From assembly GCA_963575745.1 (NCBI GenBank), contig CAUYUJ010000336.1:583080-647079 (forward strand): 64,000 bases of DNA, written 5' to 3'. Of this stretch, positions 1 to 16,485 are shown piece by piece (the stretch's first letter is position 1; every line of letters begins with the position of its first letter). A program made the position numbers and the translations under genes. The stretch is from Prorocentrum cordatum. Taxonomy: Eukaryota; Sar; Dinophyceae; Prorocentrales; Prorocentraceae. The notes beneath the pieces are model-generated. The model saw only the letters and a program-made list of their open reading frames with translations. It had not been told where the DNA came from and did no database searches.

Positions 1-2
1 AG

Positions 3-2531
3 CTCGAGGCGTATGGTCATGGATTGTACGCGTACTACTTCGAGTATGTTCGCAGGTTCGTTGAGGGCAACAACGAGCTCACTCCCGTGGAACACGGGAC
101 GCTGGGAAATTACCCTTTATCCTTCTTCGACTGGATGTTCGGGAACCCAGGTAACATCATGGCCTACGAGAGTAGCGACGAGGACACCACTATAGAGGCT
201 TCGCCTTCCGAGGTTCAACGACACCTCGAACCTCCGCCCGAAATCCCGCCTGGAAACAGGCCTTCTTTGATGGGAGAATATCCCCAGACCACTGAAGACT
301 TAATCGAAATGGAGTCTCAGGCATTTGTTCAGGCCTTCATTGCAGGCGAACCAGATACTCCGTTTATACCTCCTGGTTCGCTTGCTCCAGGCTATGGACC
401 ACGCACTCTTTTGCAGACCCTCATGAGGATGCATGAGATACTTATTACTGGTTATCCTGAGAGTCAAGAACATATCGAAGCTGACATTATGATAATGCAG
501 GATACTGACGCTTGTGGTAGCTCAGAGCTGTTGTTGGCAGCTCTGACTCTCATTGACAGCGTGCATCCTCAGGACGTGCAGAGACACTTGATATACTCCC
601 GTGGTAGATGGCGTAATGCTCTAGAAATGGCTATTGCTATGCGCGGTCATGATCTTCCTCCGCCAGGATGGGGTCTCCAGGCGGTGGGAATGTGGCCAAA
701 CCATACGGCCATGCGCAACATTGCCGGGCAGCCTGTGCTCGGCAACGAGCCCGAGCCGACAACAGCGCCTCCTACCCCGGGGCAGCCGAGCGACGCACAG
801 ACGCCGGCTATGCAGGGAAACCTGCCTGTACCAGATACGCCAATGGCCATCATCATCGGTAGTTCGACATCAGAAGAAGTAGAAGGCGATGGTTGCGGGT
901 TAGATGAGGATGACGTCACCATCTTCATGATGGAGGTGAATGGTGAGGAAGAGGTTGGCTTCGATCCTGACGAGTCTGAATCATCATCACCATCGGCACA
1001 AGCGCCATTTGCGCCGAGCTCCATCCAGCAGGGAGACTTGCCTCCATCGGGCGATCCATCTGGGATCGCACAGGAGCCTCCTCAGGCGCCTCCACCGGGT
1101 GCCGCTCATGCTGCTTCGGCAGCTTCTTCTGATGAGAACACCAGAAGGTCTCGTTCCCATACGCGCGTCAGAGAAGAGCCACATCCACAGGCTCGACTTC
1201 CTCGTGAGTGGAGGCAGGCTGGCCCACAAGAACACGCTCTCAGGAGAGGTGGCCAGCTACTTCCGTACAACGACCCAAGACGCCGAAAAGGGGAACACTC
1301 GGCCTTCGGCAAGGGCAACCCTGCCTATAGGGACAGCGAGGGCAAGGCCATCCGCGGAGGCTATCAGCTTGCAACAAATATCCGCCGCCCTGAAATTCAA
1401 GAAGCGCGGACTCAGCTGCGAGACATTATCGCGGCTCGCAAGCAGTATAGGCCCCACGCAGCTTGCGGACCTTGCTCCGAGCCGTTCCAGAACCACAGGC
1501 CAGGATGCCCCGTTGGCAACAACGAAGGTCTGAGCCCCAACCGGGGCAAAACCCCTCACAAAGATGGCCATCCGCTACTTATCCCGATGACGCCAGACGA
1601 GATCGCCGCTGTGAATCGTCGTCTCGGGATCTTGAGCCACTTGGATCCGAAAGAAGAAGAGAAGCCTACTCCGGTTCCAAGGGGACTGGTAGCCACGACC
1701 CAGGAAGAGAAAGACGCGCTCTTTAGTCTTCCTAGTATGCGAGGAAACTCGCCTGGCGTTTCTAGCCAGTCCCAACAACCAGAACCGACAATCAAGGATG
1801 AGAAAAAGGCTCAACGTGTGGCGGAGGACGAGGAGCGTATGCGGACAGCAGAAGAACGCACACGCGAGGCAACTCGCAAGATGTTGGAGGATTCCAGCAA
1901 GATCTACATGAAGGGGGCTACGAAGCCCCCACTCCCACTAACTTCGAAGGCTAAGAGTGAACCCCCGACACCTGAGCCGTCCTCGGGGCCGAAACCGAAG
2001 GTGAGCTCTCAGGACCCTGGGCCAGACGTGCAGATGGAGGTGCCTCGAACTGAAACTCCGAGGCCGCCGATTGGCGCAACTCCTACACAAGCGCCTGAGC
2101 CCAAGCAGCAACCTCAGGACCCTGTGGAGGAACGAAGACGCCCGCCTAGTCGCAGCAGCTCCGTTGCGAAAAGGGCGGCAGCTTTCGAGCGCAGTGGGTA
2201 TGCCCCTGCGCCAGCTTCGCCTGTGGCGGCCCGTTCCAGGAGGTCCGATGAAGGTGCTATGTCGAGGGGTACCTGGGTGCCGAAGATCAGGGGCAGCGCC
2301 AGTCGCGCTTCACCGCGGGGAACCCGCCAGGCGCTGCCGCTGCAGCTTCATCCTCTTCAGGAGCCGCAGCCTCTGCAACGACAGAGGCTCGTACGCGGGG
2401 AAACCCGCCAGTGGATCAGCTGCACCACCCAGGTGACACGTCCTTCACTAGTGGGACTCCGAATGCGATCAGGGATAGACTTGCGCTTCGGAAGATCCCA
2501 CCGATACGCTCGGTGGAGGAGACATTCATGA
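3..2531 (+). CDS. Gag-like N-terminal polyprotein segment (partial, ends in a frame break)
   Basis: The frame is open at the window edge, so the true start lies upstream; the first ATG-like start inside the window is not meaningful. The protein is long, low in hydrophobics, and rich in P, S, E and Q with acidic patches, like a gag or disordered linker. A possible zinc-binding cluster (C-x2-C-x6-H-x3-C, within 1,460-1,512) could be a nucleocapsid-like finger. A Glu/Arg/Lys-rich stretch (about 1,795-1,905) looks coiled-coil. The motif x-G-N-x-P recurs because DNA hairpins lie in one codon phase. The informative frame ends at the hairpin 2315-2327, where one base of the GAAA loop is missing. The residues from there to 2531 are out-of-frame translation, and the real sequence continues in the frame of 2,321-2,860. 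Gag assignment is by position and composition only. Confidence 0.7.
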   Translation, partial: LEAYGHGLYAYYFEYVRRFVEGNNELTPVEHGTLGNYPLSFFDWMFGNPGNIMAYESSDEDTTIEASPSEVQRHLEPPPEIPPGNRPSLMGEYPQTTEDLIEMESQAFVQAFIAGEPDTPFIPPGSLAPGYGPRTLLQTLMRMHEILITGYPESQEHIEADIMIMQDTDACGSSELLLAALTLIDSVHPQDVQRHLIYSRGRWRNALEMAIAMRGHDLPPPGWGLQAVGMWPNHTAMRNIAGQPVLGNEPEPTTAPPTPGQPSDAQTPAMQGNLPVPDTPMAIIIGSSTSEEVEGDGCGLDEDDVTIFMMEVNGEEEVGFDPDESESSSPSAQAPFAPSSIQQGDLPPSGDPSGIAQEPPQAPPPGAAHAASAASSDENTRRSRSHTRVREEPHPQARLPREWRQAGPQEHALRRGGQLLPYNDPRRRKGEHSAFGKGNPAYRDSEGKAIRGGYQLATNIRRPEIQEARTQLRDIIAARKQYRPHAACGPCSEPFQNHRPGCPVGNNEGLSPNRGKTPHKDGHPLLIPMTPDEIAAVNRRLGILSHLDPKEEEKPTPVPRGLVATTQEEKDALFSLPSMRGNSPGVSSQSQQPEPTIKDEKKAQRVAEDEERMRTAEERTREATRKMLEDSSKIYMKGATKPPLPLTSKAKSEPPTPEPSSGPKPKVSSQDPGPDVQMEVPRTETPRPPIGATPTQAPEPKQQPQDPVEERRRPPSRSSSVAKRAAAFERSGYAPAPASPVAARSRRSDEGAMSRGTWVPKIRGSASRASPRGTRQALPLQLHPLQEPQPLQRQRLVRGETRQWISCTTQVTRPSLVGLRMRSGIDLRFGRSHRYARWRRHS

Positions 2532-2860
2532 AGGAATGCAGGAAAGCTGGAATCCTTCCCACATCCAATGATATTCTCAAACAGCTGAGTAAAGCTCTCA
2601 GCAGGATATGCAGACATGCGCCAGACAGACCACACAATCCTGTGTGGGGCCTGGAATCTTTCGATGATCATGATGGTTGGGTTAACCTAGTGGAACTTGT
2701 GAACCATTATCCGTGGAACACAGGTCAATCAAAACACGCTGGGTATAATCCAAAATACGACGAGGCCAAAGTCATCAACGAGCAGCTATATGGTCGCTCG
2801 GTTGATCAACTAGCAGCCATCATGATGGAAGTTGCTCATGTCCGTGAACCAGACGGATAA
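2321..2860 (+). CDS. Tpt1/KptA RNA 2'-phosphotransferase domain, N-terminal lobe
   Basis: This picks up the polyprotein frame after the one-base loss at 2315-2327 (first internal Met at 2411). It contains the hallmarks of the Tpt1/KptA N-lobe: LSKALSRICRHAPD (the conserved LSK..S..LRH.P block with the catalytic Arg-His pair), then DDHDGWVNLVELV (the D..GW....L block), then a long helical stretch. The TAA at 2858-2860 interrupts the domain exactly between this lobe and the C-lobe, which follows in the same frame. Family knowledge: Tpt1/KptA enzymes use NAD+ to remove an RNA 2'-phosphate left by tRNA ligation, and some ADP-ribosylate nucleic-acid ends. Finding one in a copia polyprotein is unusual. 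Homology is by motif reading only, but the match across both lobes is strong. Confidence 0.82.
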   Translation, partial: NPPGAAAAASSSSGAAASATTEARTRGNPPVDQLHHPGDTSFTSGTPNAIRDRLALRKIPPIRSVEETFMKECRKAGILPTSNDILKQLSKALSRICRHAPDRPHNPVWGLESFDDHDGWVNLVELVNHYPWNTGQSKHAGYNPKYDEAKVINEQLYGRSVDQLAAIMMEVAHVREPDG

Positions 2861-2884
2861 GAAAAACAGCGCCTACAGTTCAAG

Positions 2885-5800
2885 GTGTTGATGCGGGACT
2901 CCGGAGAGCCCGCTATCTTCATCCGCGCCTCTCAGGGGCATTCATGGACATTGAAAGCTCCATGGTCGCTGTACAGCTACATTGTGCTGTGCGACCAACC
3001 TGCCGGGAGACCGGCCCCATACCCCGAAGTCGCAATGCATGGCACTCGATGGCACGCCTTCGAAAGTATTATGTGGCACGGCCTGTCCTGTAGACCTGAG
3101 CATAACACGAAGAAAAGGTGGACAGGCCGGTCGCGCATTCATTTCGTGCCGACAGTTCGCCGCCGTGCCGTGAACAGTGGGTGGGACCCAGACTCAGACA
3201 TCATCATCTTCGTAGATTGGCGTAAGGCCATACAAGATGGTATGAAGTTCTGTTGGTCCGATAACGGAGTCCTCTTGTCCGAGGGAAATAACGGTATCAT
3301 TGAAGCGTATTACATCTCTCATGTAGAGGACCTGTCCACGGGAAGGCACTGGCGTAATCCAGAGTACCTGGGGAACCGCCATGCGCGAGTCTCTGTCGCA
3401 ATGATGTCTGCTCCTGACAGGTGGGCTGACGTTGGCACTGCTAGCGTCAAATATCAGTGGTCCCGAGACCAAGAGGGCGTCGACCCCCCCATGGTCTACC
3501 TCCACAGAGAAGTTGGGGACCACTATAGCCCCACCAAGCTGGGAAACCAGCCTGAAATCCATCGGATTTTCATGATCACCGAGAGTGAGGCCGGGAGCGC
3601 GGCTCCAAGCCGTGCCCCAAGCCAAGGGCCTAGTGCCGTGTCTTGGCAGGCCATCAGCACCTCGGACCTGGATCAGATCGCAGCCGCGCTGAACCCTGAC
3701 CAGGTAGAACAGCTGGCGGACAGGTTCTACCAGCAGGACCCCTGGGCCGCAGGCCAGGGAGCAATGTCCGCCATGGCGACGAGAAATCGTCCGGCCATGC
3801 AGGGAAACCTGCCTATAAGCGGACCCGCTCGGTTTGAGCAAATGCATGGAAGCCCTACTCAGAGCATGCACACTCCAAGGGGCATGACTCCATTGGGCAC
3901 ACCACCTGCACAATCCCCGTTCGGGACACCTGTCCGCCCTGCCACAAACGGCAATCTCATGGAGAGGATAGCTGCGGCTAGGGCTGAGCACAGCACAGCT
4001 CTCCTCAACATGATGCCGCCCGGCACGCCAACGAGTCAGCAGGGAAACCTGCCTGGCACACCAAGCCACCATAGGGCTGGTGTACCTGACGACTATCGCT
4101 CAAGAGTGGCGGCCGCGGTGCAGCAGGTGCAGAGCCATAATCTGCCTCACCCAAGTGGGCAGAGGTGGAGGCCAGCCTGGTCCTGGGAACCAGAGGGTCC
4201 CAACCCACGGGATCCTGCTCGGCAACGAGCCTTTATCCCGGCGTTCAATGCCTATCCGAGCATGTCTCAGGGCCAGAGGCCACCACCAGCGCAGATGAAC
4301 CCGCCATTATACCCTGATGGGTCAAGGGTTCCGAACAAATTTGTTCGCGAATTGGCGGATCAGATGCATAGCCTCACTAATGTGCGCTGCAGTGACCATT
4401 CCATGTACCCGCGCATGGCCTTCATGCCTTCACCGACATCACCAGAGGTGGCTGTCCAGCCCACTGCCCATTCAATATCGTCTGGCAGTAGGAGCGTGCC
4501 TGACTACATCAGGCAGACTCACCACACTCAGCAGGCATGCTTCAGGAGAAGGCAGGCGGTGCAAAGTGTACGGGATCAGTCACGCGCAGCTGCACTTGAT
4601 GTGGTGAGAAACAGGGGCTCACCTTTGCGAGGTAACTCGCCCGCCGTGGCTCCTACCACTTCCATGCCAAATGTCGAAGTGCCGGAGGTGATGGATCTAA
4701 CGGGGACTCCCCCATCAGCCTTCATGCCCTCCGAGACGGTACTGGAGAGGCAGCGGCGGGTATATCCCAGGGCAGCAGACGTAGAGGTCTTTACTGGGAT
4801 GGAAGATACCTGTGCGGTATGCCTCGAAGAATTTCAGCCCAGGGACAGTGTTTACCGCTTGAGGTGCAATCACTTGTTCCACGAGGGATGCTGGAATTCT
4901 AATGCGATGGGCCACGTTACAAACCAGCGTGAGGGAGATCCCCAGCAGCCACCATGTGCTATCTGCCGAGCACCTGGCATCATAGCGTCATCCTTCCCAT
5001 GGACCGGCTCCTTTAGTCAGACTCCTGAGCAGTCAGCGAGAGAGTTGCGGGAGCTGAGGAGCATGGTGGAGGAGATGACGGCTAGGATGCTAGTTATGCA
5101 GACAGCCCAGTCCCAACAGCAGGGACACCTGCCAGAAGAGGTAAGGCCGCCTATGGAGACGGGATACTTTGATCAGCTTATCCCGATGACGGCGCCTCAG
5201 CAGGGAAACCTGCATGGCACTCCTCAGATGTCTCCCCAGAGTGGAGACGGGGCTGAGATGGCACTGGACCCTGATCAGCTGAGTGAATTGCGTGTACGAC
5301 ATTTCCAGAATCAGATGGATAATTCGCACACAACATTTATGCTGGATGCCAACAATCCTGAAACTGATAGTCCGTCGCTAGACCTATCAGAATCCTCAGT
5401 GGCGACAGCAGCAACAGCAGCCAGGGCCGTCAACATCACAGCGACGAACGAGGAGTTCGAGGAGTGGCTGCAGTACCGGGATCACATCACGAACGAGGGG
5501 CTGCAAGACATCGCCCTTCACTCGTACTTGACGTTGACAAGGCGCACGACCCGCGAGCAGTATAAGAGCATACGTGATGAGTATGCCAACTGGCGGGAGG
5601 AGCGTGGCGATCACGCCCAGCACGTGTCGTACTTCCAGTACATCGACCTGGCGCGCATGGCCGAAAGCGAGTCGCATGCCAGTGTCACGCGGGGTAACCC
5701 GCTAGGGAGTGCGACTGCGCCGCGGGGAAACCCGCCTACCGACGCAGCCGACACTTCAGAGACTGTGCACATCAAGCAGCCGAGTAAGACGTTCCTGGAT

Positions 5801-6718
5801 GATGGTGGAAATTCCATACTCATCGATGTCGGCTCGAAGATCAACATCATGGGCGAGAACACGAGCCGTAAGTTCGTCCAGGCTGCCGAGGCACATGGCC
5901 GTACTTGTACGTTCGAGCCCCGCTCTCGTTTGAATATCAACGGAGCGGGAGAAGGGTCGGCCCCAGCGGATACCGCAGGCACATTCAGTATTGCCTGCGA
6001 GTGCCAGGGGCCGGCCCAACTCGATTCATACAAGACGAACATTGTATCAGGCTGTGGCAAGGACCTGCCAGCCATCCTAGGCCTCGATAGTATGCAAGAT
6101 AAACGCACGATCATCGTGCTTGAACGAGGCCAGGAGAAGCTGATATTCCCTGGTAAGGGGCAGGTCAAAATGGAGCTCCCTGAGGGCTCCAAGATCATGC
6201 CGACGACGAAGTTGCCATCAGGGCATCTGTCGATCAGGTGTGATTGTTTTGGAGCTGCGGGGCAACCCGCCTCGAGCTCAAGCAGCACGTCCTTCCAGAC
6301 AGTGCTGACAGGCGAGCCGACCCCGGCGCAGGAGCGCAAGCAATTGCAGGGAAACCTGCCCCAGGGGTTGATGGAAACGCTCGCCAAGGCCACCATGCGA
6401 GGCGACAACATCGACGATCTTGAGACGTTCGATTGTTTTGTTGCCAGGACACTGGCCCAGCACGGTGGAAGTGTACCCATGGACGCTGTACAGTCCCGCC
6501 GGAAGATAGTGATGGGATACACTAATCGTGAATTGCATACGGTCAGCGACGCTAGGTCCAAAGGCGCGCTGAAACAGCTGATGGATAATCCATCGATGCT
6601 GACAGCATTTGCGGAGCAATCCGCCTCTGAGGCCACGGCGCGCTGCAGTGCTGAGCTCCAGCATCTGAGGGAAGCCCAGATGCTGGCAGATATTGTAGGC
6701 ACATCTTCTTCATCTTGA
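2885..6718 (+). CDS. Polyprotein segment: Tpt1 C-lobe, RING-H2 finger, retropepsin-like protease
   Basis: The frame is the same as 2,321-2,860 and is open from the TAA onwards (EKQRLQFKV before the first Met). Residues 1-150 carry the Tpt1 C-lobe: IRASQGHS (family R-x-x-QGHS), MHGTRWHAFESIMWHGL (HGT...I...GL), SRIHF (H-x-HF) and a final NGVLLSEG block. Residues about 640-700 are a RING-H2 finger: CAVC, RCNHLFHEGC, CAIC. Residues about 970-1,080 have a retroviral-type aspartic protease signature, ILIDVGSKINIMG, followed by LPAILGLDSM; the usual DTGA/DSGA is DVGS here. The linkers are P/Q/S-rich and hold 13 of the hairpins. RING fingers usually recruit ubiquitin-conjugating enzymes; a role in element assembly or host-protein turnover is inference. 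The frame ends at TGA 6716-6718 and continues in the same frame. Confidence 0.85.
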   Translation: MLMRDSGEPAIFIRASQGHSWTLKAPWSLYSYIVLCDQPAGRPAPYPEVAMHGTRWHAFESIMWHGLSCRPEHNTKKRWTGRSRIHFVPTVRRRAVNSGWDPDSDIIIFVDWRKAIQDGMKFCWSDNGVLLSEGNNGIIEAYYISHVEDLSTGRHWRNPEYLGNRHARVSVAMMSAPDRWADVGTASVKYQWSRDQEGVDPPMVYLHREVGDHYSPTKLGNQPEIHRIFMITESEAGSAAPSRAPSQGPSAVSWQAISTSDLDQIAAALNPDQVEQLADRFYQQDPWAAGQGAMSAMATRNRPAMQGNLPISGPARFEQMHGSPTQSMHTPRGMTPLGTPPAQSPFGTPVRPATNGNLMERIAAARAEHSTALLNMMPPGTPTSQQGNLPGTPSHHRAGVPDDYRSRVAAAVQQVQSHNLPHPSGQRWRPAWSWEPEGPNPRDPARQRAFIPAFNAYPSMSQGQRPPPAQMNPPLYPDGSRVPNKFVRELADQMHSLTNVRCSDHSMYPRMAFMPSPTSPEVAVQPTAHSISSGSRSVPDYIRQTHHTQQACFRRRQAVQSVRDQSRAAALDVVRNRGSPLRGNSPAVAPTTSMPNVEVPEVMDLTGTPPSAFMPSETVLERQRRVYPRAADVEVFTGMEDTCAVCLEEFQPRDSVYRLRCNHLFHEGCWNSNAMGHVTNQREGDPQQPPCAICRAPGIIASSFPWTGSFSQTPEQSARELRELRSMVEEMTARMLVMQTAQSQQQGHLPEEVRPPMETGYFDQLIPMTAPQQGNLHGTPQMSPQSGDGAEMALDPDQLSELRVRHFQNQMDNSHTTFMLDANNPETDSPSLDLSESSVATAATAARAVNITATNEEFEEWLQYRDHITNEGLQDIALHSYLTLTRRTTREQYKSIRDEYANWREERGDHAQHVSYFQYIDLARMAESESHASVTRGNPLGSATAPRGNPPTDAADTSETVHIKQPSKTFLDDGGNSILIDVGSKINIMGENTSRKFVQAAEAHGRTCTFEPRSRLNINGAGEGSAPADTAGTFSIACECQGPAQLDSYKTNIVSGCGKDLPAILGLDSMQDKRTIIVLERGQEKLIFPGKGQVKMELPEGSKIMPTTKLPSGHLSIRCDCFGAAGQPASSSSSTSFQTVLTGEPTPAQERKQLQGNLPQGLMETLAKATMRGDNIDDLETFDCFVARTLAQHGGSVPMDAVQSRRKIVMGYTNRELHTVSDARSKGALKQLMDNPSMLTAFAEQSASEATARCSAELQHLREAQMLADIVGTSSSS

Positions 6719-6757
6719 AGATGGCAGGGCGACGTCGCCCCCTCGTCGTCTTGCCTG

Positions 6758-8938
6758 TTGGCTGAAAAGCCGGGGGGTAACAAGGACAGCGGGGTAACCT
6801 GCCTTAGTAAGAGGGCTTTTGTCATTGAAGATACGAGGGAGGCCTGTGCCGACCTTCGCACCCGAGTCTATATTTGTGATCGTATTTCCCACAACGAACT
6901 TATGACAAGCGTGGGCACAAACTACCTAGGTGCGGTGATCAGTGGAGATTACACTCTTATATGGATCAGTACTCCGGGTGACTGGTACGTACGAACTCCA
7001 GGAAAGAGAGTGGCCCCACATTGGTCACGTATCCAAAACCTGTTGATAAAAGCCAAGAAACTCCGCATGAAGATCATAATATTTGGTCCCCCAGGATATG
7101 TTTGGAAGTTATCTCCAATACGTGATACCCTGGAAGATCTAAAGTTGTCAGTAATACGGATGCGTTTGTGTCATTTCGGTATTCGGTTCAATCTGCAAGA
7201 CAGTACACCAAGCGGTACTTATACGCAGGTAGCATCATCAATACCGATTAGCTCGAAGCTGTGGGCATGTACCTGCAAGCAGGCAATACCACAACATGTG
7301 TTGGATTGGTACGGCCATACAGTACGGCATGCTGAATGGCGAGCTCAGACACGTACTACACTCATCCGTCATTTAAACGACAACATCCTGGGGAGCACCA
7401 CCACGCACGGAAACGTGCCTGTATACTTAAATACGTATACACGTACAGACCATAACACCCGTCACTACGTGACGACTAATAAGGGAGGACCAAAATGGTC
7501 TGAAGTCATCCGACGTGTAACAATCAACCTGGATAGCAATGCGGTTATTCAGGATATCTCAGTTAGCGATCAACCAACAGGATATGATTGGCATGCACCA
7601 TTACCTGCAGGGGTTGCCAACATCAGTACTCGGTTGCATTGGCAACCCGAGGAACCGGTCTTGCTCGGAAACGAGCCGACTCAATCACCACAGAAACATC
7701 GACGCGTCATCATAGATGACTGTTCTCTCCCCCTCCCGACTCTGGCGATTGACGCATGTACCCATTCAACCACGACAATGAGTACACAGACCGACGAACA
7801 AGACGAGCAAGCTTTACCCACTGAATCGCGTATAAAGCAGAAGGAGAGGCTCAAAGCCGAAAAGGAAGCAGGCATCAAGCCTCGCCGCATTAAAAAGCAC
7901 GTTGAAGACGGAAACGATGATTGCGGCGACGACTTGTCAGGACTCGGACAGGATCTTATGGCAACCTGGAGTACTGACGTCCCTGTTGAGCTGATAAGCT
8001 CCGACGAGGACGACGACTTGTTCCTTGCCCTCCCCGCATCCATGCCCGACGCACACGCTGACATATACAGCATAGTCGCTACACTATGCTATGGTCATAA
8101 CAACTGCGTGGATATGTTGGAGCTTTGTGGCGGTGAGGGTGGCATCTCAGAGCTTGCCTTCTCAAGGGGGCTCTCCTCAGGCGGCAACTTGGACAAGACT
8201 GCATATGTCGACCTGGGAGACCCCTCGGTGCAGCAGGTTATAGATCATTACTTTGCTATATGCTACGTACGAGTTGCCATACTGCAACCCAGCTGCCGCA
8301 CCACGGGACCACCATCCTACTACAACTACAAAGTCAACTACAACACTTGGGAACAGCACCACAAAGAAGACTTACCACACATAACTTATTGTGGTAAAAC
8401 TGCTGTAACCCAAGATGACGCTCGGAGGTGGTTTATACGCGAACAACCTACAGGAACATGGGTGGATGATATTTCTCCATGGAAGAAGCTTGCCAACCGA
8501 CCGCACATTACAACCGTACGCATTGACCAATGCGCTACGGGACTTAAAGACACGACTGGTGACTATATTAAGAAGCCGACAAATATCACCAGCAACGACG
8601 AGACAATTCTTAAACCCTGTGAGCGACTCAAGTGCAACGGTCAGCATGTGCACGCACAACCGTGCAATACAGAGTTTTCACTGGCACAAAAATACACCCG
8701 ACGACTGCAGTCTGCCTTCGTGGAAGCCGTATATCTGGCGAAAACCATTGACACCACGCGCGGAAACGCGCCTATAAGTACCGCACATGCTTATCCTACA
8801 GACCTTCCCGATCAAGCTGAACCAGGCGAAGGTATGAGACGCATCGGTGATCGTATCATCCCAAGGGTGGCCACTTGCCCGGCATGCATCGACAACGTCC
8901 GAAAGGACAGTCCTAGCCATAACAGAGACCCTACGTAG
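6758..8938 (+). CDS. Polyprotein segment with methyltransferase-like region
   Basis: Same frame as the preceding segment, separated only by TGA 6716-6718; the nominal start at 6758 is TTG and probably not a real initiation site. Residues about 450-515 read VDMLELCGGEGGISE ... ILQPSCRTTGPPS. This resembles cytosine-methyltransferase motif I (D/E-L-x-G-G-x-G-G) and a degraded motif IV (PCQ replaced by PSC), so catalysis by that route is doubtful. It is followed by a Cys/His-rich block (VRIDQCATGLKD ... RLKCNGQHVHAQ) and a terminal C-x2-C (TCPACIDNV). The first 200 residues, with WISTPGDWYVR, IIIFGPP and DWYGHTVRHAEWRAQTR, are similar in style and may be a second copy of the fold. Between the two regions is a charged linker with KQKERLKAEKEAG. 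It ends at TAG 8936-8938; the meaningful frame then shifts by +1 into the next segment. Confidence 0.65.
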   Translation: MAEKPGGNKDSGVTCLSKRAFVIEDTREACADLRTRVYICDRISHNELMTSVGTNYLGAVISGDYTLIWISTPGDWYVRTPGKRVAPHWSRIQNLLIKAKKLRMKIIIFGPPGYVWKLSPIRDTLEDLKLSVIRMRLCHFGIRFNLQDSTPSGTYTQVASSIPISSKLWACTCKQAIPQHVLDWYGHTVRHAEWRAQTRTTLIRHLNDNILGSTTTHGNVPVYLNTYTRTDHNTRHYVTTNKGGPKWSEVIRRVTINLDSNAVIQDISVSDQPTGYDWHAPLPAGVANISTRLHWQPEEPVLLGNEPTQSPQKHRRVIIDDCSLPLPTLAIDACTHSTTTMSTQTDEQDEQALPTESRIKQKERLKAEKEAGIKPRRIKKHVEDGNDDCGDDLSGLGQDLMATWSTDVPVELISSDEDDDLFLALPASMPDAHADIYSIVATLCYGHNNCVDMLELCGGEGGISELAFSRGLSSGGNLDKTAYVDLGDPSVQQVIDHYFAICYVRVAILQPSCRTTGPPSYYNYKVNYNTWEQHHKEDLPHITYCGKTAVTQDDARRWFIREQPTGTWVDDISPWKKLANRPHITTVRIDQCATGLKDTTGDYIKKPTNITSNDETILKPCERLKCNGQHVHAQPCNTEFSLAQKYTRRLQSAFVEAVYLAKTIDTTRGNAPISTAHAYPTDLPDQAEPGEGMRRIGDRIIPRVATCPACIDNVRKDSPSHNRDPT

Positions 8939-11900
8939 TGTAAATATCATGATTCCATCTGTATATTGGCCACGTCCAGCATGTCAGAGGGATCTTACGA
9001 GAAGCAAGGGTGTTAAGAACCACCTCGATACCGAACCTGGTAAATGTCGTTTTGCTGAACCATTTAAACTACCAGACGACCACGACCCCGAAGGCAAAAC
9101 CGTGCCAGCTTGGTGGGAACCCTTCCCTAAACCTGGTGAGGGCCAAGCTTCAGCTTCAGGTGGCCGTCAAGGCGCACACGCCAGGCCACCACGACCACGA
9201 TCCTTCGGCAACGTCGATCCGACATCTGGTGCCAGCAGCTACGACATGCTACGAGACGCCCCCGAGCGTGGAAACACGCCTTCTGCGTCTTCTAGCGAAG
9301 CGCCACAGGTAGCGGCCCGCCGCGGCCGTCTACAAGGCGTACCACCACCTCCAGACGCAGTTAACACAGGGGACCAACTACGGAGAGCTACAAGGAACCC
9401 TCTTGCCTCCACCGGCTCTGGGGCTCCACGACTACCCGACTGGACGAGATTCGACATCCAACACAGTCTACAGAGTCTCCGTAGTCACGAACCCCATGTC
9501 GTGAAAAAGGAACTCCGGAAACTGCATCTGCGATGGTATCATGCGGAGGAGCCAAAGATGAGGCTAATCCTCGAAAAGGTGGGGCTTGATAACGTTCGAC
9601 TGAACATGATCAAGGAAGTTTGCGATACCTGTCGGGAATGCAGAGCATGGGAACGTCCAGGAAACTCAACACTACCATCGGTGAGCCTTCCTGGCAACTG
9701 GCTCGATGAAGGGGAAATGGACCTCATGTTTTACAAGAAACGGACCATATTTCATATTATGGATCGTTGTATTCGCCTGGCAGCAGGCCTAGAAATTTCC
9801 GACAGAGAACGTGACGCTATCATCGACGCCTACCACTATTGCTGGATTGCCTATCACGGACCCTTCAAAGTTTTATACTCAGACGGAGAAGGCGCCCTGA
9901 ATAACGATGCCGCTAAAACCATGATGGCCAATAAGGGCACGGAACTTCGTATCCGAGCACCTGGCCAACACGCGACTTCAATTGAGTCACGAAGCGGCAT
10001 TCTCAGAGGCGTCCTCCACATGATTGAGGAAGAATTGAATAGACACAACATCCCTGTTGTATTCACTAGAGTATTGGCGGAAGGCATCTTCGTTACTAAT
10101 GCGTTTACGTTTTATAACGGAGTATCGCCATATCAGGCACACACAGGACGTCAGCCCTCTTTCCTCCCTGATCTCGATACCCTTGACTTTCCCAAGGGAC
10201 CCGAGACTTCAGGACACGAACGAGAACGTCGTGTAAGGGAAGTCAGCCTAGAAGCTATAACTCAGGCTACTGCTGTGGCCAAGACAAATCGGGCTCTTAG
10301 GGCTAAGACGACTCCTGATGGTGCTCGCCTCTACTCATCAGGGGATATGGTCGATTACCACCGACCTACTGCCACCAAGGACGACCATGGAGGTTGGAAT
10401 GGCCCATTCCAGGTGCTCCGTAATGTACCTGAAAGAGGACATATTGTTGTCAAGGCAGGATCTCGTGAGGTAATTGTGATGTATCCTGATGCTCGTCACA
10501 CACTATACATTGAATGTCTCCTCACACGGGAACTTGGCATGGATAGTATGGCCATGCAAACCGTCCTTGCTTATGTGGCACACCTCAGCGCAGGGAAACC
10601 TGCCAAAGTTTCCGGTTATATCCCCGATTACAAGGGAAACCTTAATCTGTCAGACGACAGCAAGTTCCACCCGCGCGTGCACTTAGCACTACAGTATCTC
10701 GTACAAAATTACTTCCGAGTAGAACATGTTGTAGCAGTTCGACTGGCTAAGAGTGTGTCAAGTCTACCTGCAGTAAAGTACGCCACCGGGTCTACGCTGA
10801 TCCACTATGACAACGACATCAGCCCGGCGTTCCACTATTACGAATGTGTGGGCACCGGCTTAAACATTTCTCAGATCACTGGTAGCACTCACTCCAGACT
10901 TATTCAATGCTTGACTTCACGTGTCCCTTCCTTAGGATTTCACGACGATTTGGTTAAATATCAGCATTCAAGCAACACGTCTGGAGAACACGATTCGCCT
11001 GGAAACAGGCCTTCTCCAGACAAACCAGATGCTTCATCGCCGAGTGAAGGCCGCCTGTCGACAATCTATGAGGAGAATGAGGAACACAATATCGAAGCTA
11101 TGATGCTGGAAGAGTGGTACGACGAGCTACGTATGGACCTTCATCCTACGACGATTACCGATGGTTATCTCTATTGCGTCCCAACAACTATGCTGCCCGA
11201 CCAATGTGTTTTGGTTTCAGCATTTGTGGACGAGGATGATACTATATCATCAGATATGCTCGGAGACGAGCCGAAATCACGTGAGTCCTGTCTAGTCTCT
11301 CTTTGTTCAACCACAACCGACGAGAGCTACTCTCTTGACAGTGATGAATATGGTCTTTACGTTGAATTATGCTTTACATCAGAAATGTCAAAAATAGTGT
11401 TGGATCAGACTCAATTTGCACAGCTCGATACCGATATGGTCGCAACGATGAGAGTATATGTATCCTCTGCTGCTAAACGTGCTGTGGTTGTCAAAGAAGA
11501 CGATCTACTGACCAAAGCCGACATAGCAGCACATCCAAAGGAGGTTAGTGAAGCTTTGTATACTGAGCTCAAAATCTGGATTGATAACCGATGCTTTGAG
11601 ATGTATGATTTATCCAAAGCTTCCAACATCATGACATCCAGGTATGTATACAATTGGAAGTTCGTAAAGATGGGTACCGAGAACGTTAAAACCACTCGTC
11701 TCAGACTGGTCCTTCGTGGATTTATGGATACTGAGGCTTTTGATGTGGAAACATTCTCGGGAACCGCCCGAAGGCAGTCCCAACGACTCCTGGCAAGTGA
11801 AGCGGCATGCCATCCAGAGTGGATCTTAGCATCCATGGATATCGATAAGGCGTTCCTCAAGGGTTTGACCTATGAGGAACTTGCCCATGCCACCGGCGAG

Positions 11901-12590
11901 GAAACTCGCATGGTTTGCTTTACTCTTCCACCAGGAAGTGCTCAGGTACTTCGTACATTACCCGGCTTCTCATCCTACGACGAAAGTCGACACTGTCTTA
12001 GATGCCTCAAACCAGGAACGGGTACAAAGGACGCTCCAAGAGCGTTCTCTCTCAAACTTCGTACGACCACACGAGCTATAGGACTTACACCGACCAGCTA
12101 CGATCCTGAATTTGAATTCAGCCAAGACCTGCTGACGGCAAAACATGTCGATGATATTAACATGACAGGTCTAGAGAAAAATATAGACGACTATGTACAG
12201 CGTGTCGAAAAGGTGTTTGGCAAATGCAAGCTCAACAAGCACACACATACGAACTGCGCCGTTCGCTACACTAAGAATGATCAAGGATATGTGATCATGG
12301 ACCAGGACGAGTATATCAAACAACTACGTCCTATTACACACACAGAACTTACAGGAGCGGCGGCCGATGCCAAAGCCACGAAACTCATTACCGACATGTT
12401 CGTCAGCCTGCGAGGAAGGAGCCCTCGCCTATGCCCTTCTTACCCAAATCTGGCTCATGGTATACGTGGACTCTCTTCAGAAAATCCAAGAGCCCACCAA
12501 TCTGCAAGTCAGACGTTTGAATGCTGTGACGCGAAAGCTGATCACCAGCCCGAAACGTATCACCTTCCCTCGGATGAAGCCGACGAATGA
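8847..12590 (+). CDS. Integrase and copia-type reverse transcriptase segment
   Basis: Meaningful coding starts at about 8,950; the first 30 residues overlap the previous frame. A pre-integrase zinc region is seen at about 9,500-9,650 (LHLRWYHAEEPKM, then CDTCREC). The integrase core follows, with Asp in EGEMDLMFYKK, Asp in VLYSDGEGAL and Glu in IESRSGILRG, in D-D-E order. An extended linker contains acidic DEDDTISSD stretches. The RVT_2 reverse transcriptase spans about 11,540-12,420: MDIDKAFLKG carries the first catalytic Asp, and KHVDDI replaces the usual YVDD. Family function: copying element RNA and inserting the cDNA. The last roughly 55 residues (after 12,412) are out of frame because AGGA is duplicated at 12,413-12,420; the RT tail and RNase H continue in the next frame. 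Confidence 0.9.
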   Translation: MIVSSQGWPLARHASTTSERTVLAITETLRSVNIMIPSVYWPRPACQRDLTRSKGVKNHLDTEPGKCRFAEPFKLPDDHDPEGKTVPAWWEPFPKPGEGQASASGGRQGAHARPPRPRSFGNVDPTSGASSYDMLRDAPERGNTPSASSSEAPQVAARRGRLQGVPPPPDAVNTGDQLRRATRNPLASTGSGAPRLPDWTRFDIQHSLQSLRSHEPHVVKKELRKLHLRWYHAEEPKMRLILEKVGLDNVRLNMIKEVCDTCRECRAWERPGNSTLPSVSLPGNWLDEGEMDLMFYKKRTIFHIMDRCIRLAAGLEISDRERDAIIDAYHYCWIAYHGPFKVLYSDGEGALNNDAAKTMMANKGTELRIRAPGQHATSIESRSGILRGVLHMIEEELNRHNIPVVFTRVLAEGIFVTNAFTFYNGVSPYQAHTGRQPSFLPDLDTLDFPKGPETSGHERERRVREVSLEAITQATAVAKTNRALRAKTTPDGARLYSSGDMVDYHRPTATKDDHGGWNGPFQVLRNVPERGHIVVKAGSREVIVMYPDARHTLYIECLLTRELGMDSMAMQTVLAYVAHLSAGKPAKVSGYIPDYKGNLNLSDDSKFHPRVHLALQYLVQNYFRVEHVVAVRLAKSVSSLPAVKYATGSTLIHYDNDISPAFHYYECVGTGLNISQITGSTHSRLIQCLTSRVPSLGFHDDLVKYQHSSNTSGEHDSPGNRPSPDKPDASSPSEGRLSTIYEENEEHNIEAMMLEEWYDELRMDLHPTTITDGYLYCVPTTMLPDQCVLVSAFVDEDDTISSDMLGDEPKSRESCLVSLCSTTTDESYSLDSDEYGLYVELCFTSEMSKIVLDQTQFAQLDTDMVATMRVYVSSAAKRAVVVKEDDLLTKADIAAHPKEVSEALYTELKIWIDNRCFEMYDLSKASNIMTSRYVYNWKFVKMGTENVKTTRLRLVLRGFMDTEAFDVETFSGTARRQSQRLLASEAACHPEWILASMDIDKAFLKGLTYEELAHATGEETRMVCFTLPPGSAQVLRTLPGFSSYDESRHCLRCLKPGTGTKDAPRAFSLKLRTTTRAIGLTPTSYDPEFEFSQDLLTAKHVDDINMTGLEKNIDDYVQRVEKVFGKCKLNKHTHTNCAVRYTKNDQGYVIMDQDEYIKQLRPITHTELTGAAADAKATKLITDMFVSLRGRSPRLCPSYPNLAHGIRGLSSENPRAHQSASQTFECCDAKADHQPETYHLPSDEADE
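10980..11020 (+). repeat. Nested double hairpin around a GNRA hairpin
   Basis: The GCCTG-GAAA-CAGGC hairpin (10,997-11,010) sits inside a second perfect 9-bp inverted repeat, TCTGGAGAA (10,980-10,988) and TTCTCCAGA (11,012-11,020). The two stems would stack with an 8-nt left bulge and a 1-nt right bulge. It lies in the linker between integrase and reverse transcriptase. Confidence 0.8.
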
Positions 12591-13224
12591 AGTTGACATC
12601 CATAGCGATTCGGGGTATCGGAAGCTTACCGGGGAGGAGGATGACGAGACCAAGGGCTACGGCATACGCGGGGCCAATGTACTACGGCGAGGAAACTCGC
12701 CTCAAGGCAAGTCCGTCGTTCACCTCTGTGACGGACTATGCAAATCACACCGATTACAGGTGAGGTCCAGTTATGCTGCGGAGGCACTTGCAGCCGCACA
12801 TAACCTTGATGAGTGTTACCCTACGCTCATTACTCTCCACGAGCTTAAGGCAGGAGCTTTGACTCCACGACAACTACGAGACATGCGTGAAGTTGGAGGC
12901 CTAGCTATCAAAGTCTCTCTTACCATAGACGCCGAGTCCGTCTACAAATCTTTATCAAGCAGGGATCTCAAGATACCTACAGAACGGACTCTGCTTGGAC
13001 GTATCAGCTGGATACGTGAGCTCATGGATATAGGTATAGTACACAATGTTCAACGGTGTGATACTAGGGATATGACCGCAGATGGGCATACAAAGGGAAG
13101 CATCGATCGGGAGCTGCTTCTGGAAGTGATGTCAGGCACTCAGTCATTTAAGTATGACGTGAAGCAATGTGTTCCCTTTCGGGGTCCCGAGGACAGAGAC
13201 AAACCTAAGTCTAATCAATTTTAG
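12367..13224 (+). CDS. Reverse transcriptase tail and RNase H, end of polyprotein
   Basis: Meaningful sequence begins at about 12,420 with ALAYALLTQIWLMVYVDSL, the copia block after the RT catalytic core that normally reads like GALLYLA-TRPDI. The RNase H active-site acids appear in order: Asp in VDIHSDSGY (about 12,595), Glu in SSYAAEALAAAH (about 12,775), Asp in LTIDAESVYKSL (about 12,925), and the terminal DMTADGHTKGSID (about 13,070), which matches the ADxLTKG signature of copia RNase H. It ends at TAG 13,222-13,224. One GNRA hairpin (12,687-12,700) lies in frame as RGNSP. RNase H would remove genomic RNA during cDNA synthesis. The domain itself shows no stop; the only defect is the upstream 4-base duplication. 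Confidence 0.9.
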   Translation: MPKPRNSLPTCSSACEEGALAYALLTQIWLMVYVDSLQKIQEPTNLQVRRLNAVTRKLITSPKRITFPRMKPTNEVDIHSDSGYRKLTGEEDDETKGYGIRGANVLRRGNSPQGKSVVHLCDGLCKSHRLQVRSSYAAEALAAAHNLDECYPTLITLHELKAGALTPRQLRDMREVGGLAIKVSLTIDAESVYKSLSSRDLKIPTERTLLGRISWIRELMDIGIVHNVQRCDTRDMTADGHTKGSIDRELLLEVMSGTQSFKYDVKQCVPFRGPEDRDKPKSNQF

Positions 13225-13262
13225 TCTGTCCTTGTTGCCCTCGCGGTCCACTTTGCCAGCTC

Positions 13263-13285
13263 GGGCGCCTAGTATAAAGGCGCCC
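13263..13285 (+). promoter_or_regulatory. Perfect 7-bp inverted repeat with TATAAA in the loop
   Basis: GGGCGCC (13,263-13,269), loop TAGTATAAA, then GGCGCCC (13,279-13,285), 40 bp after the last stop codon. It could be an LTR promoter element, an RNA processing or terminator hairpin, or both. Dinoflagellate promoters usually lack a canonical TATA box, so the promoter reading is speculative. Confidence 0.35.
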
Positions 13286-13487
13286 CTCTAGTTGCTCGGA
13301 AACGAGCCTTATGTGTCACGCCTGGCAATGAGCCAGCTTCGTACAACTCAGGCCCTTCGCCATAATACACATTTGCTTGGTGAGGTATGGCCTGTTTGGC
13401 TTACCTCTAACTGAGCCGATAGCCCTTCATTGTTTGAAGGGGCTGTCTTGTATTTGCGTGAAATACTTTGCGAGGAAACTCGCCTTG

Positions 13488-13510
13488 CAGTCTGGTGTTA
13501 GGCCAGACTG
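13488..13510 (+). repeat. 8-bp stem-loop in the element 3' tail
   Basis: CAGTCTGG (13,488-13,495), a 7-base loop, then CCAGACTG (13,503-13,510). It begins 5 bases after the GNRA hairpin at 13,470-13,483, so the two would form a tandem pair in RNA. Confidence 0.6.
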
Positions 13511-13869
13511 TACGCACTGTTTTCTTTTTTGCAAACAGTCGTGCGCGCGACCTTTGCGTGCGACTATGCTCTCCGTCTCCTCCCCTCCCGACTTTAAGGG
13601 TAGGTCTTTGGGAGATGTTACAGTATCGGGAGCATAGCTCGCGCGCGCCGTTGCCTTTGGCCCAAGGCACGCGCGCCCTATTTGCCCGGACACCGCGAGC
13701 GTTCGCTATGTGCTGGAAAGACCGATACATCGATCTTATCTTATCTTATCCGCCCATTCCTTCCTCATACTGTACTATCACAGCAGAGCGATGGACGCGA
13801 TTTGCCATCCGATGTCTATCATGGAACCGGATGCTATTTGAGTTACCAGGCTCACTTTCGACTAAGGCG

Positions 13870-15045
13870 TCGTCGAGCTAGAGTTGAGCTCGCACCCTTT
13901 GCGGACAAGCCTAACGACATGGCCAAGCATCTGGGAGGAATGATCAGGGCGGACGGTTCTTTTTTCCACGGGGCTCGGGAAGAGGCTAGAGGCGGTTGAT
14001 TCCGGATACGCTAGTATGGGTCGTTACTGGTATCAAAGCAACATCCCTTACGTTAAAAAGAGAGCGGTGTTCTTGAGCAAGGCACTGGGGCCCGTTGTCT
14101 CTGGGCTCGATTTTCACGTTTTTAACCCTTGCCCAAGTGGCCAAACTTCAGTCGCGCATCATCGTGCATGGGCGAAAAGCAATGAGGGGTGCTGCTACCT
14201 TTGAAGCGGGGGGTCATAAGCAGTCTATTCCGAATGAAGTTGTCTTTAAACACTGGCGAATCGGCCCTCTGGAACTTGAGCTGCGGTCTAGGCGCATCCG
14301 CTGGCATCAGCGCTGGGTCGAGGACCCAGAAGCGCACGTCTCTCAGTGGGGGGCTCTGCTCGGCACCGCGCGTGTGGGGGGGGGCAACAACCTGACCATC
14401 GTTGGCGAGGGTCAGAGGCTCACCGAAGCTGCTTGTCCATGGGCGCGTAGGTTTGCGTCAGACATATAGTCCTTAGCGGATGAAGATGACCAGGCGTGTT
14501 CCATGGTCCAGGACTTTAACAGCTCCCCGCTCAACCTTTTCCAGGACCCTGACATCGTTGACTGGTTCCTACGGTTTGCTGTCAAGCGTAGTAGGGCACG
14601 ATGGTTAAGTGTTATAATTCCACCGCCGGGCCTCTCATCGGTGAGCACAGGTCATAACACGGTCCTGTCTTCTGGCTGGGGGCTTACTAACATTGGCACT
14701 CATGTTTGCGAAGTTCCGGGGCGTGAGCGGGCATTCAACACTATGAGACAGTTACCCGTCCATCTACGTAATCATCACGGGCTAAAGGCACTTCTTGCGA
14801 GGGCTGTCCTTATTAATCAGTGCTTGAACTGCGAGTCGGCATTCGAGTTTCGAATTTCGGCCCATCACCATGCATGCGATGTTTTCCAGGCAGGGGTTTG
14901 TTCAGCAGCGAGAAACTCGACCGCTCGTGAAATACACCAGCCAGATGCAACAACATGTCCTTTGTGCGAGTCCCAAATCTTGAACCTGAACACTTCGGCT
15001 TCCTGCGCCCACATCCGAAGCCACTTCGGCGCCCTCCCGCTTGTG
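13870..15045 (+). pseudogene. LINE-type ORF2 C-terminal remnant
   Basis: One frame, cut by several stops (for example at 14,467-14,469), carries recognisable pieces. AKHLGGMIRADGSFF and MGRYWYQSN are like the post-RT region of dinoflagellate LINEs that precedes the thumb. ELELRSRRIRWHQRWVEDP is the Arg-rich basic block followed by an Ala/Gly tail. Near the end, CLNCESAF, HHACDVFQAGVC and CPLCESQ are followed by CAHIRSHF, forming a terminal zinc-finger cluster. No catalytic RT motif remains, so this is a 5'-truncated dead copy. It abuts the copia element tail on the left and a different ORF on the right. The assignment rests on style and motif order, not on an alignment. Confidence 0.6.
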
Positions 15046-15049
15046 CAGA

Positions 15050-15891
15050 ATGGCGGCGGCAGCAGACACCCAGATGGCAGGGGCTCCGGCGCGGGCGCTG
15101 GCAGGACCCAGGCGCAAGGGCGGCGCGTCCGCAGAAGGCGAGAAGGAGGCCAAGAGCAAGAAGTTGGAGGCCATCGAGCAGGAGACCTTGAAGCTCCATG
15201 GCAATAAGGGCGGAGTACTGACGGCCCTCATTGCAGCGCTGGCTCGCCCTTCGCTGGCGAACTGAACTCTCGCGAACTCGCAGATCTGACGGGCGCCTGC
15301 TTCGCCTGCTGGATCGCCCCCATCGGCGCGGGCATGGTCGTCGCCACGAAGCAGGCGGGCAAGGCTTACTCGGAAGCCTGCAGGGAAGCAGGCAAGAACC
15401 AGAACTTCGGCAATCCGTGGCCACACATTTTCCTAGCGATGCTCAAGCACCTTGCCAATCTCGGCGCCCTGAGCGAGAAGCACTCGGCCACCCTCAAGCT
15501 GCACTGGAACCACCTGCTGGGGCAGCCCAGGGAAACGGCGATCACGCAGCTCCAGGACCCGGTGCGGCACTGCAGAGTCAGGGACTGCTGGCACGACAAG
15601 AAGAAGGAGGGTGCCGAGGCCACGCACTGCAAGGTGCAGCTCATGATGTCCCCCCATATGCAATCGGTGACCACCAAGCACCACAGTGCGGAGGGGGCGA
15701 CAGTGAGCGACGCAGTCCAGGCGGCAATCCTCAAGGAGAACGGGGTCCTGAAGCCAGGATCAGCCCCGCGCGGGGCGCTCGAGAGGGGCGCGGAGAAACT
15801 CCTTCGCAAGCTCGGCATGACCTCCGACAGAATATCCAAGGCGAAGGGATCCCAGGACCTGGACGAAGACGAAGACGAAGTGGAGATGTGA
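15050..15891 (+). pseudogene. Multicopy dinoflagellate ORF of unknown function, one frameshift
   Basis: ATG at 15,050 opens an Ala/Lys-rich N-terminus. The frame shifts near 15,240, after which it runs as LNSRELADLTGACFACWIAP, KQAGKAYSEACREAGKN, NPWPHIFLAMLKHL and a Lys/Glu/Asp-rich C-terminus ending in TGA 15,889-15,891. The middle (NPWPH.......L........HWN......V.HCRV) is the type of ORF found in many copies beside dinoflagellate retroelements. I do not know its function. About 280 residues would be encoded if the frame were continuous. It begins directly where the LINE remnant ends, so the two may be parts of one composite insertion. Confidence 0.5.
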
Positions 15892-15896
15892 GCCAC

Positions 15897-16485
15897 CCCC
15901 CAGGAATGCGGCCTTCAGTTTTTACTTGTATAAACGGTTCTGAGAGGATGTGCCAACTTTTTAGACAGGGTACAGTGGGCGAGACAGCTTTGCTTAACCT
16001 ACATAATAAGGTAGGTAAACCAATTCTTGAATATCGAGATGGAGACTTAGTTTTTCACGAGTACCCAGTCAGATGCAATGCGACCTGCAGCAGCTGCAGG
16101 CACGTGCACGCCAGGTACGCTCGCTCTCTATTGATATTGTCACTCTTGCTGCTTCCTCTCGGGCGTCTAGTGTTCTCATCGCACCTGCTCCTTTTTCACC
16201 CTGACCCCCCAGCCGAGAGGGCTGACGGACAGGAGGAATTATCATTAATGATTGTGCTGCTGAGGAGGCCTCACGACCCTTTTCAGCGCAGCGTCGCAAG
16301 GGACGGTGCTGCTAGTGGGCCCTCGGTTTCCGCCATTTCCGGGGCCCCACCGTCAGCCAGTGGTGTCCCCCAGCGGGGTTGCAAGGCAGGCTCTCCTTAC
16401 AGTCGCACGGGCGTCACATATCCATGACGATTTGGATGTAGCATTGCAGCAAATTTGTTGCAGTTGCTAGACAGGGATCGTAAGT
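15897..16485. other. No supported gene
   Basis: Unique-looking sequence between a broken ORF and a microsatellite. Only short frames without recognisable motifs; nothing supported. Confidence 0.5.

Follow-up and report, generated by a model that had tools for sequence, protein, structure and literature searches.

Several known systems bear comparison with the hairpin array described here. In single-stranded RNA viruses (MS2, satellite tobacco necrosis virus and parechovirus) and in the pregenomic RNA of hepatitis B virus (with RGAG loops), dispersed packaging signals place many short stem-loops with a common loop motif across a coding genome. It has been proposed that these dispersed stem-loops bind capsid protein jointly (PMC6281560), and further papers treat dispersed packaging signals as well (PMC4751978; PMC3593212; PMC5431903; PMC7612645). 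Packaging and dimerisation signals of Ty1/Ty3 and of retroviruses are likewise structural signals, placed in the genomic RNA of long terminal repeat (LTR) retroelements. A third group, the mobile hairpin elements found in genes (mitochondrial byp, double-hairpin and Rickettsia palindromic elements), also puts many similar hairpins into coding sequence. Here we describe a hairpin array in Prorocentrum cordatum, within a 64-kb stretch of contig CAUYUJ010000336.1 (C336; the stretch is C336:583080-647079, called the window, and positions below are window coordinates). The hairpins sit in a 16.0-kb copia-type LTR retrotransposon, which we call E336. It resembles other copia-type LTR retrotransposons in its RVT_2 reverse transcriptase, LTRs and a 5-bp target-site duplication, and possibly in an integrase HHCC-like motif. 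What sets it apart from the usual copia element is its length of 16 kb, a Gag region that is very large and encodes a Tpt1/KptA and a RING domain, a TGA that separates Gag from pol, and the hairpin array itself.

E336 shares with viral packaging signals stem-loops with a common loop spread over the RNA and a structure conserved between relatives. It differs from them in its carrier, an LTR retrotransposon, and in having about 40 very uniform, perfect hairpins (with GC ends, stems of 5 bp and a single tetraloop class) whose conservation and covariation are visible in the sequence; the array is known here from sequence alone. The original prediction knew of no described retroelement with this feature, and none with such a hairpin array appeared among the matches listed from the open-licence PMC literature, as represented by titles and the beginnings of abstracts. 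The main text of a Ty3 structure paper lacks the words GNRA, tetraloop and covariation (PMC11381356), and that of the P. cordatum genome paper lacks the words retrotransposon, LTR and hairpin (PMC10666404).

A pattern scan of the + strand over the whole window finds 31 perfect Watson-Crick 5-bp stems with a GNRA loop, all inside 248-13483. The - strand holds two (29540 and 10046), about the chance level, and the remaining 50.4 kb of the window holds none on the + strand and one on the - strand. When any tetraloop is allowed, 1-13600 contains 52 perfect hairpins, of which 31 are GNRA and two GACA; the loops that stand out are GAAA (21), GCAA (6), GAGA (2) and GTAA (2). At loop lengths of 3 and 5-8 in the same stretch, each loop sequence occurs at most twice among the top eight per length. 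Under Markov nulls of order 1-4 the mean is 0.52-0.64 per 13.6 kb and the maximum 5 (200 runs each), compared with the 31 observed. Shuffling synonymous codons in the four long open reading frames (ORFs), with the protein kept, leaves a mean of 1.7 and a maximum of 6 (200 runs), compared with 28. An origin by chance or base composition is rejected by both nulls, and the predicted excess held up against both the antisense strand (2 versus 31) and shuffled sequence, which lack it. No Rfam family matches the window at gathering score.

Most of these hairpins belong to a class that begins and ends in GC. In the window it comprises 29 perfect GNRA hairpins, two with one G.T pair and two with GACA loops, in agreement with the 33 hairpins, 29 of them perfect, of the original prediction. 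All lie on the + strand, and most were compared with sister copies. The commonest form, GCAGG-GAAA-CCTGC, occurs at 812-825, 3799-3812, 4039-4052, 5200-5213, 6346-6359 and 10590-10603. GCGAG-GAAA-CTCGC is found at 1739-1752, 11896-11909 (within the reverse-transcriptase domain), 12687-12700 and 13470-13483 (3' of the last long ORF); the same stem carries GCAA at 1864-1877 and GTAA at 4627-4640. GCTCG-GAAA-CGAGC stands at 7663-7676 and, again 3' of the last long ORF, at 13294-13307, with GCAA in its loop at 737-750 and 4217-4230 and GAGA at 11258-11271. GCGGG-GAAA-CCCGC is at 2395-2408 and 5722-5735, with GTAA at 5689-5702 and GCAA at 6257-6270, and GCCTG-GAAA-CAGGC is at 248-261 and 10997-11010. 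The remaining perfect GNRA stems each occur once: GCCGG-GAGA-CCGGC (3002-3015), GCTGG-GAAA-CCAGC (3538-3551), GCGGA-GCAA-TCCGC (6611-6624), GCACG-GAAA-CGTGC (7405-7418), GCGCG-GAAA-CGCGC (8758-8771) and GCGTG-GAAA-CACGC (9266-9279). The two with a G.T pair are GCAGG-GAGA-CTTGC (1028-1041) and GCGGG-GTAA-CCTGC (6789-6802), and the two with GACA are GCAGG-GACA-CCTGC (5119-5132) and GCCAG-GACA-CTGGC (6443-6456).

The 31 perfect GNRA hairpins have 13 distinct 5' arms; the original prediction gave at least twelve inner-stem sequences. Two of them, at 1511 and 3778, lack GC ends and are unpaired in all three sister copies, and for these reasons they fit the chance rate and are probably chance hits. 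The predicted extent of 248 to 13483 holds for every site in the window and fails as a limit: the field continues upstream, where the 2,080 bases immediately 5' of the window hold five perfect GNRA hairpins and one with a G.T pair. In the 18,080 bases made up of this upstream stretch and window 1-16000, the frame GC...GNVA...GC occurs 50 times on the + strand, 37 times fully paired; four such frames pair with one G.T, one of the four outside the element. On the - strand the same stretch has five frames, none fully paired.

The class consensus is GC-NN-G-GNRA-C-NN-GC, with C mostly the next base. Beyond this frequent 3' C the flanks vary, and the inner stem pairs vary by site. E336 as a whole has 40 perfect GNVA sites, and four of the 40 loops are GNCA, so the loops are not confined to GNRA. 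The loop base N is A at 29 sites, C at nine, T at two and G at none, compared with 92 C, 73 A, 60 T and 48 G in GGN codons elsewhere. With 100-base flanks, local folding gives a mean pair probability of at least 0.5 at 30/40 sites, compared with 7/16 for control hairpins, which are hairpins with other loops. In the sister copy C15 the corresponding figures are 23/31 and 7/20. The hairpins are spaced slightly more evenly than random, with only 3.7% of simulations as even in E336 and 2.2% in C15.

The pairing might be a by-product of codon use under selection for a repeated xGNxP peptide. One phase is indeed common: among 41 GC...GC hairpins of E336 (G.U allowed), the first G is at codon position 3 in 26, at position 1 in nine, at position 2 in four and outside the long frames in two. 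The main codon phase that had been proposed is thus confirmed, but as one of three in use. Synonymous shuffling, however, abolishes the signal (28 to 1.7), stem third positions are conserved, two hairpins lie beyond the last long ORF, and two relatives described below, C1 and C2c, mainly use another phase and peptide. The peptide-repeat reading is refuted by the shuffle, the phase mix and the third-position conservation, and we consider its chance negligible.

We compared the array with three sister copies of E336, namely C15, C70 and C200, which are 82%, 77% and 80% identical to it in aligned parts. Of 43 E336 sites, 36, 34 and 33 align without gaps in the respective copies (7, 9 and 10 are unaligned or gapped), and 32/36, 30/34 and 30/33 of these still pair. 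A GNNA loop is kept at 34/36, 26/34 and 30/33. Pairing is kept in every gaplessly aligned copy at 27 of the 31 sites in the window; it is lost in all copies at 1511 and 3778, and in a single copy at 3538 and 10997, both with one pair broken in C15. At 13470 a length difference disrupts the hairpin in C15. Column identity is 0.91-1.0 in the stems, 0.86, 0.74 and 0.82 at loop base N (C15, C70 and C200, here and below), and 0.53, 0.50 and 0.47 in the weakest flank columns. At third codon positions, stems are 93-96% identical (109/114, 104/110 and 105/113) and loops agree at 34/39, 29/38 and 31/38; the rest of the ORFs are 57-64% identical (2637/4132, 2182/3837 and 2509/4095), a comparison weakened by base composition that is unmatched between stem and other third positions. 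A coding-strand excess of such hairpins is also present in the other eight copies.

Most hairpins are old, shared sites, with a few tandem gains or losses. This bears on the proposal that a structure-defined unit has proliferated through the element, which was not borne out. A mobile miniature hairpin of the byp or double-hairpin type, spreading within the element, would account for the tandem gains seen between C1 and C2c. Mobile hairpin elements are inserted units, however, and E336 sites are 14 nt long, mostly orthologous, internally variable and compensated. Most are common to copies that are 77-82% identical, and several are common to different families, with stems changing in step. Flanks are not constant beyond the frequent 3' C, inner stem pairs differ by site, and empty sites for most hairpins were not encountered in these comparisons of diverged copies. 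We therefore regard the mobile-hairpin explanation as quite improbable.

If the stems are selected as paired structures, then substitutions in one arm should tend to be matched in the other. Across the four E336-type copies, with gapped sites excluded, 1,629 of 1,725 stem-pair cells at GNVA sites are unchanged, compared with 694 of 950 in control hairpins. Two-sided changes pair in 12 cases and fail in three (control 14 versus 18), and one-sided changes give 43 G.U, 19 A.C and 19 other pairs (control 76, 75 and 73), all counts that, like those between families, span overlapping copy pairs and are not independent, which tempers their weight. Between groups, two-sided changes pair in 36 cases and fail in seven (control 37 versus 28), and between families the gaplessly aligned sites with at least two stem substitutions keep all five pairs intact in 57/174, compared with 16/195 for controls. 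Clear two-sided changes are seen at 1739 (A-T to G-C; GCGGG/CCCGC in C15, C200 and C70, where the loop is AAAA), at 5119 (A-T to G-C; GCGGG/CCCGC in C15 and C200, with C70 in a G.T form with loop GAAG) and, between families, at 12687 (A-T to T-A; GCGTG/CACGC in C1, C2c and two further copies, C2a and C2b). The G.T pair at 1028 is fully Watson-Crick in C15 and C70, and that at 6789 in C70. At 10590, C1 has GCGGG/CCCGC, and C2a and C2b have GCGGG/CCTGC. In C2a, C2b and C2d, copies in which many stops interrupt the frames, sites with at least two stem substitutions keep all five pairs in 2/10 (control 5/61).

A G.U pair in the sense strand is an A.C mismatch in the antisense strand, and the G.U bias therefore points to a folded sense RNA. 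The original prediction had left RNA and single-stranded DNA side by side: selection on structure stands, and of the two we favour RNA, on a bias seen clearly in comparisons among E336-type copies and weakly in the others. Action as single-stranded DNA or through the antisense strand is set aside on this basis. The expectation that the sites would persist in sister copies, with compensatory changes and a bias towards the sense strand, agrees with what we find (27/31 sites pairing throughout, 12 versus 3, and 43 G.U versus 19 A.C). Mutation in the form of snap-back copying by reverse transcriptase could also yield paired changes and keep the arms alike without selection, and reverse transcriptases do make inverted repeats. 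The stems, however, change far less than adjacent synonymous sites, rather than only together, and such copying does not fit loops that are mainly GNRA or GNCA, ends that are GC, or a loop base N biased relative to GGN codons. We judge this explanation very improbable.

Two 16.4-kb relatives, C1 and C2c, which are 94% identical to each other, carry a second version of the array. They have 39 and 46 perfect GNVA hairpins, a density similar to that of E336, and their main loop class is GNCA. Sites that are exactly GCGGGGNCACCCGC number 21 in C1 and 23 in C2c, and hairpin 11258 of E336 aligns in C1 with GCGGG-GTCA-CCCGC. The first G is at codon position 1 in 37/45 and 39/49 hairpins, a main phase that specifies a different peptide from that of E336. 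Between C1 and C2c, stems are largely conserved and loop base N is variable. Tandem changes are few: in C2c a 30-nt array contributes one copy, and a 24-nt array two, with no counterpart in C1, and C1 has one site absent from C2c.

The second family also bears on a tertiary scaffold or dimer, in which GNRA loops would dock in RNA receptors with no protein reader. The E336 loops are mostly GAAA or GCAA, the classic docking loops. C1 and C2c, however, reach a similar hairpin density mainly with GNCA. A crude word count for one receptor type finds 20 TATGG but two CCTAAG in the whole of E336, which are the halves of the 11-nt tetraloop receptor. Loops of the GNCA type, and of a putative GNGA type described below, make receptor docking less likely than a reader protein that diverges with the family, and we consider the scaffold improbable. 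Thus, of the proposal that GNRA loops dock into receptors or bind protein, the loop class stands in E336, it is not strict given the GNCA family, and recognition by protein is the likelier part.

Genome-wide counts (4.13 Gb in 21,875 contigs) extend the pattern. The motif GCGGGGNCACCCGC occurs 8,142 + 8,783 = 16,925 times on the two strands, and its reversed control 506 + 489 = 995 times; GCGAGGNAACTCGC occurs 2,971 + 3,043 = 6,014 times, with 58 + 54 = 112 for the reversed control. The looser GCNNGGNAACNNGC gives 48,928 + 51,129, with a control of 20,251 + 20,645. Of 12 isolated GCGAGGNAACTCGC sites, eight fall in elements that belong to this clade. For the remaining four (L029-L032) there is no protein match to the elements compared, and they may be chance occurrences or further element families; at L029, two short matches at DNA level link the site to the stretches of C2a and C2b, off its hairpin. 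The hairpins are likely confined to this clade.

Relatives known as proteins can be examined for the main-phase signature, a codon CNN followed by GGN AAC (or GAC) and then the reverse complement NNG, which restricts the residue pairs. In P0001, 72% identical in pol, all seven GD motifs fit the signature and one GH motif does not. The seven fitting motifs suggest that this relative, known from protein alone, uses GNGA loops. P0001 and P0005 have reverse-complement codon pairs at the protein column of hairpin 9266. At the column of hairpin 11258, 12/36 aligned sequences have fitting pairs (LE, RP, HV, RS and HM), including E336 and C2c, which leaves 10/31 public proteins. Among the near clade (32 of 68 matches, picked by identity), the fit is 20/41 for GN, 14/23 for GD and 0/5 for GH, compared with 39/145 for other residues; the control residue GT is also high, at 16/23. 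The 36 distant homologs among the 68 show no enrichment (GN 1/4, GD 0/9, GH 1/5, other residues 43/297). Because the GT control is also high, we treat the protein evidence as supporting only. The loop code may extend to other species, as reverse-complement codon pairs in P0001, P0005, P0010 and P0032 would suggest, although P. cordatum itself may be among the sources of the public proteins with the signature. No relative turned up among viral contigs searched with either the pol protein or P0005.

Several observations weigh against our leading explanation, which is set out below. The G.U bias of one-sided changes is weak between groups (54 G.U versus 36 A.C; control 92 versus 70), modest in C2a, C2b and C2d (19 versus 12; control 40 versus 58) and absent between C1 and C2c (2 versus 2). 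Local folding in C2c, at 29/46 sites, is barely above its control hairpins (18/33), and the antisense strand of E336 folds well too (25/40). Even spacing is less clear in C70 (5.6%) and C200 (15%), and spacing is random in C1 (51%) and C2c (84%). In 20-kb stretches, fully paired frames occur on the - strand four times in C1 and three times in C2c, compared with 36 and 43 on the + strand, and C70 keeps a GNNA loop at 26 of 34 aligned sites although 30 pair. Nevertheless, selection on the stems, action in the sense strand, loops particular to each family and spread of the sites between the LTRs can be read from the sequences themselves. Because the array is far above its nulls, the stems are conserved and covary, the strand bias is present and a second family repeats the pattern, we consider selection at the RNA level on sense-strand hairpins almost certain.

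The element that carries the array occupies 1-13863 of the window on the + strand, on which its ORFs, 3' LTR and hairpins also lie; this is the 3' ~13.9 kb of its 16.0 kb, and its 5' start lies outside the window at C336:580951. The LTR pair, the duplication AAGGC on both flanks and the RVT_2 domain identify it. The 3' LTR (13591-13863, 273 bp, ACTTTAA...TTTCGACT) is 96% identical to the 5' LTR at C336:580951-581219, directly 3' of which stands TGGTAGCGGAGCTGG, presumably a primer-binding-site-like stretch as judged against the initiator-tRNA sequence. A genome search with the LTR gave 40 scored matches of at least 95% among 1,620 first-look candidates and eight further pairs 15.5-15.7 kb apart, and so many full-length copies exist. 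A Gag-region ORF (24-2531) has a stop-free frame that runs on upstream of the window, where a motif pattern finds the CCHC zinc knuckle CHECGSTDHLVRDC; the Gag regions of C1 and C2c contain such a knuckle too. A public P. cordatum protein, P0070, has 86% identity to the Gag-region query over 7% of that query.

The second Gag-region ORF (2885-6718) encodes the Tpt1/KptA RNA 2'-phosphotransferase domain (PF01885, 6.1e-18, window 2885-3400) and a RING finger (4805-4969). Among solved structures, the relatives found for the former are two tRNA 2'-phosphotransferase 1 chains only, 7yw3_A (1.7e-10) and 7yw2_A. C2c has both domains, with Tpt1/KptA at about L017:6857-7555. This ORF ends at a TGA (6716-6718), after which an ORF in the same frame (6758-8938) begins the pol region; a single TGA also stands at the aligned place in C1 (L022:1814-1816) and C2c (L018:1246-1248), where the stop-free frame 5' of it in C2c runs for 3,131 codons. 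It may be a point of readthrough or restart. The pol ORF (8847-12590) contains the copia reverse transcriptase RVT_2 (PF07727, 1.7e-9) and, upstream of it in E336, C1 and C2c, an HHCC-like motif recognised by pattern only, with no integrase Pfam match. An ORF in another frame (12367-13224) overlaps the pol ORF, extends 3' and contains hairpin 12687. Downstream of the element, a tandem repeat of short period (mostly 9 bases) lies at 16478-16749, and an array of related, GCTCTTGGGGTCTATTCTGCCGT-like repeats, 31 or 53 bases long, lies at 18439-19973, the largest family with 32 copies. A seven-base loop, CCAAGAC, occurs on perfect 5-bp hairpins seven times in 13601-64000, perhaps as another repeat family.

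What might read the hairpins? Retroviral zinc-knuckle nucleocapsids bind G-containing tetraloops. We envisage a model in which about 40 short hairpins in the sense RNA are maintained by RNA-structure selection on top of the protein code, and each would be a weak docking site for one of the element's own RNA-binding proteins, with its zinc-knuckle Gag the likeliest candidate. By binding many hairpins at once, Gag would select, condense and assemble the ~16-kb genomic RNA into particles, and families would drift jointly with their Gag to other loops, GNRA or GNCA. The zinc knuckle of Gag, the long RNA, the sites past the last long ORF and the family-specific loop fit many weak Gag docking sites. 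Two points count against the model: the link between the CCHC motif and the hairpins is by analogy only, and an array running through pol is unlike the studied relatives, since Ty1/Ty3 signals lie near the RNA ends. The Ty1/Ty3 signals are described as few and near those ends, with most of the internal sequence deletable (in Ty1 as much as 5 kb), although sites dispersed beyond the major regions may also contribute (PMC4974528). As a whole, a structure code read by zinc-knuckle Gag for genome assembly is our leading explanation, held tentatively and with a little less than an even chance; the Gag and assembly role taken by itself we hold just as tentatively, if not slightly more so.

Another protein, of the host or a non-Gag product of the element, could instead bind the hairpins and control export, stability, localisation or translation of the long transcript. 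Such a role in RNA fate shares the sequence evidence for the Gag model, and sites that run through pol and past the last long ORF (13294 and 13470) are consistent with it. The extra RNA-acting Tpt1/KptA domain of the element also suggests that RNA handling may belong to its biology. A shared host reader would not be expected, however, to face GNRA as the main loop class in one family and GNCA in another within one nucleus, and we think this explanation unlikely, if a serious contender. Extending the Gag model, we can picture a giant algal copia clade with a genome-long, family-specific loop code, in which the loop co-evolves with an element-encoded reader and each family recognises its own RNA, a broader proposal that is possible but more speculative than the Gag role itself.

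Dispersed weak assembly signals in long RNA genomes are hard to test, partly since the proposed sites are degenerate. E336-type sites are near-perfect and numerous, have thousands of matches in the genome and are visible in sequence, and the dispersed-signal idea therefore becomes directly testable; the families offer matched RNA sites together with candidate readers that would have different loop preferences. Strong RNA-structure selection that overlaps the coding sequence of an LTR retrotransposon was not found described in the literature matches outlined above. If the model is true, then a retrotransposon would carry in its loops a second code, one that serves assembly and identity.

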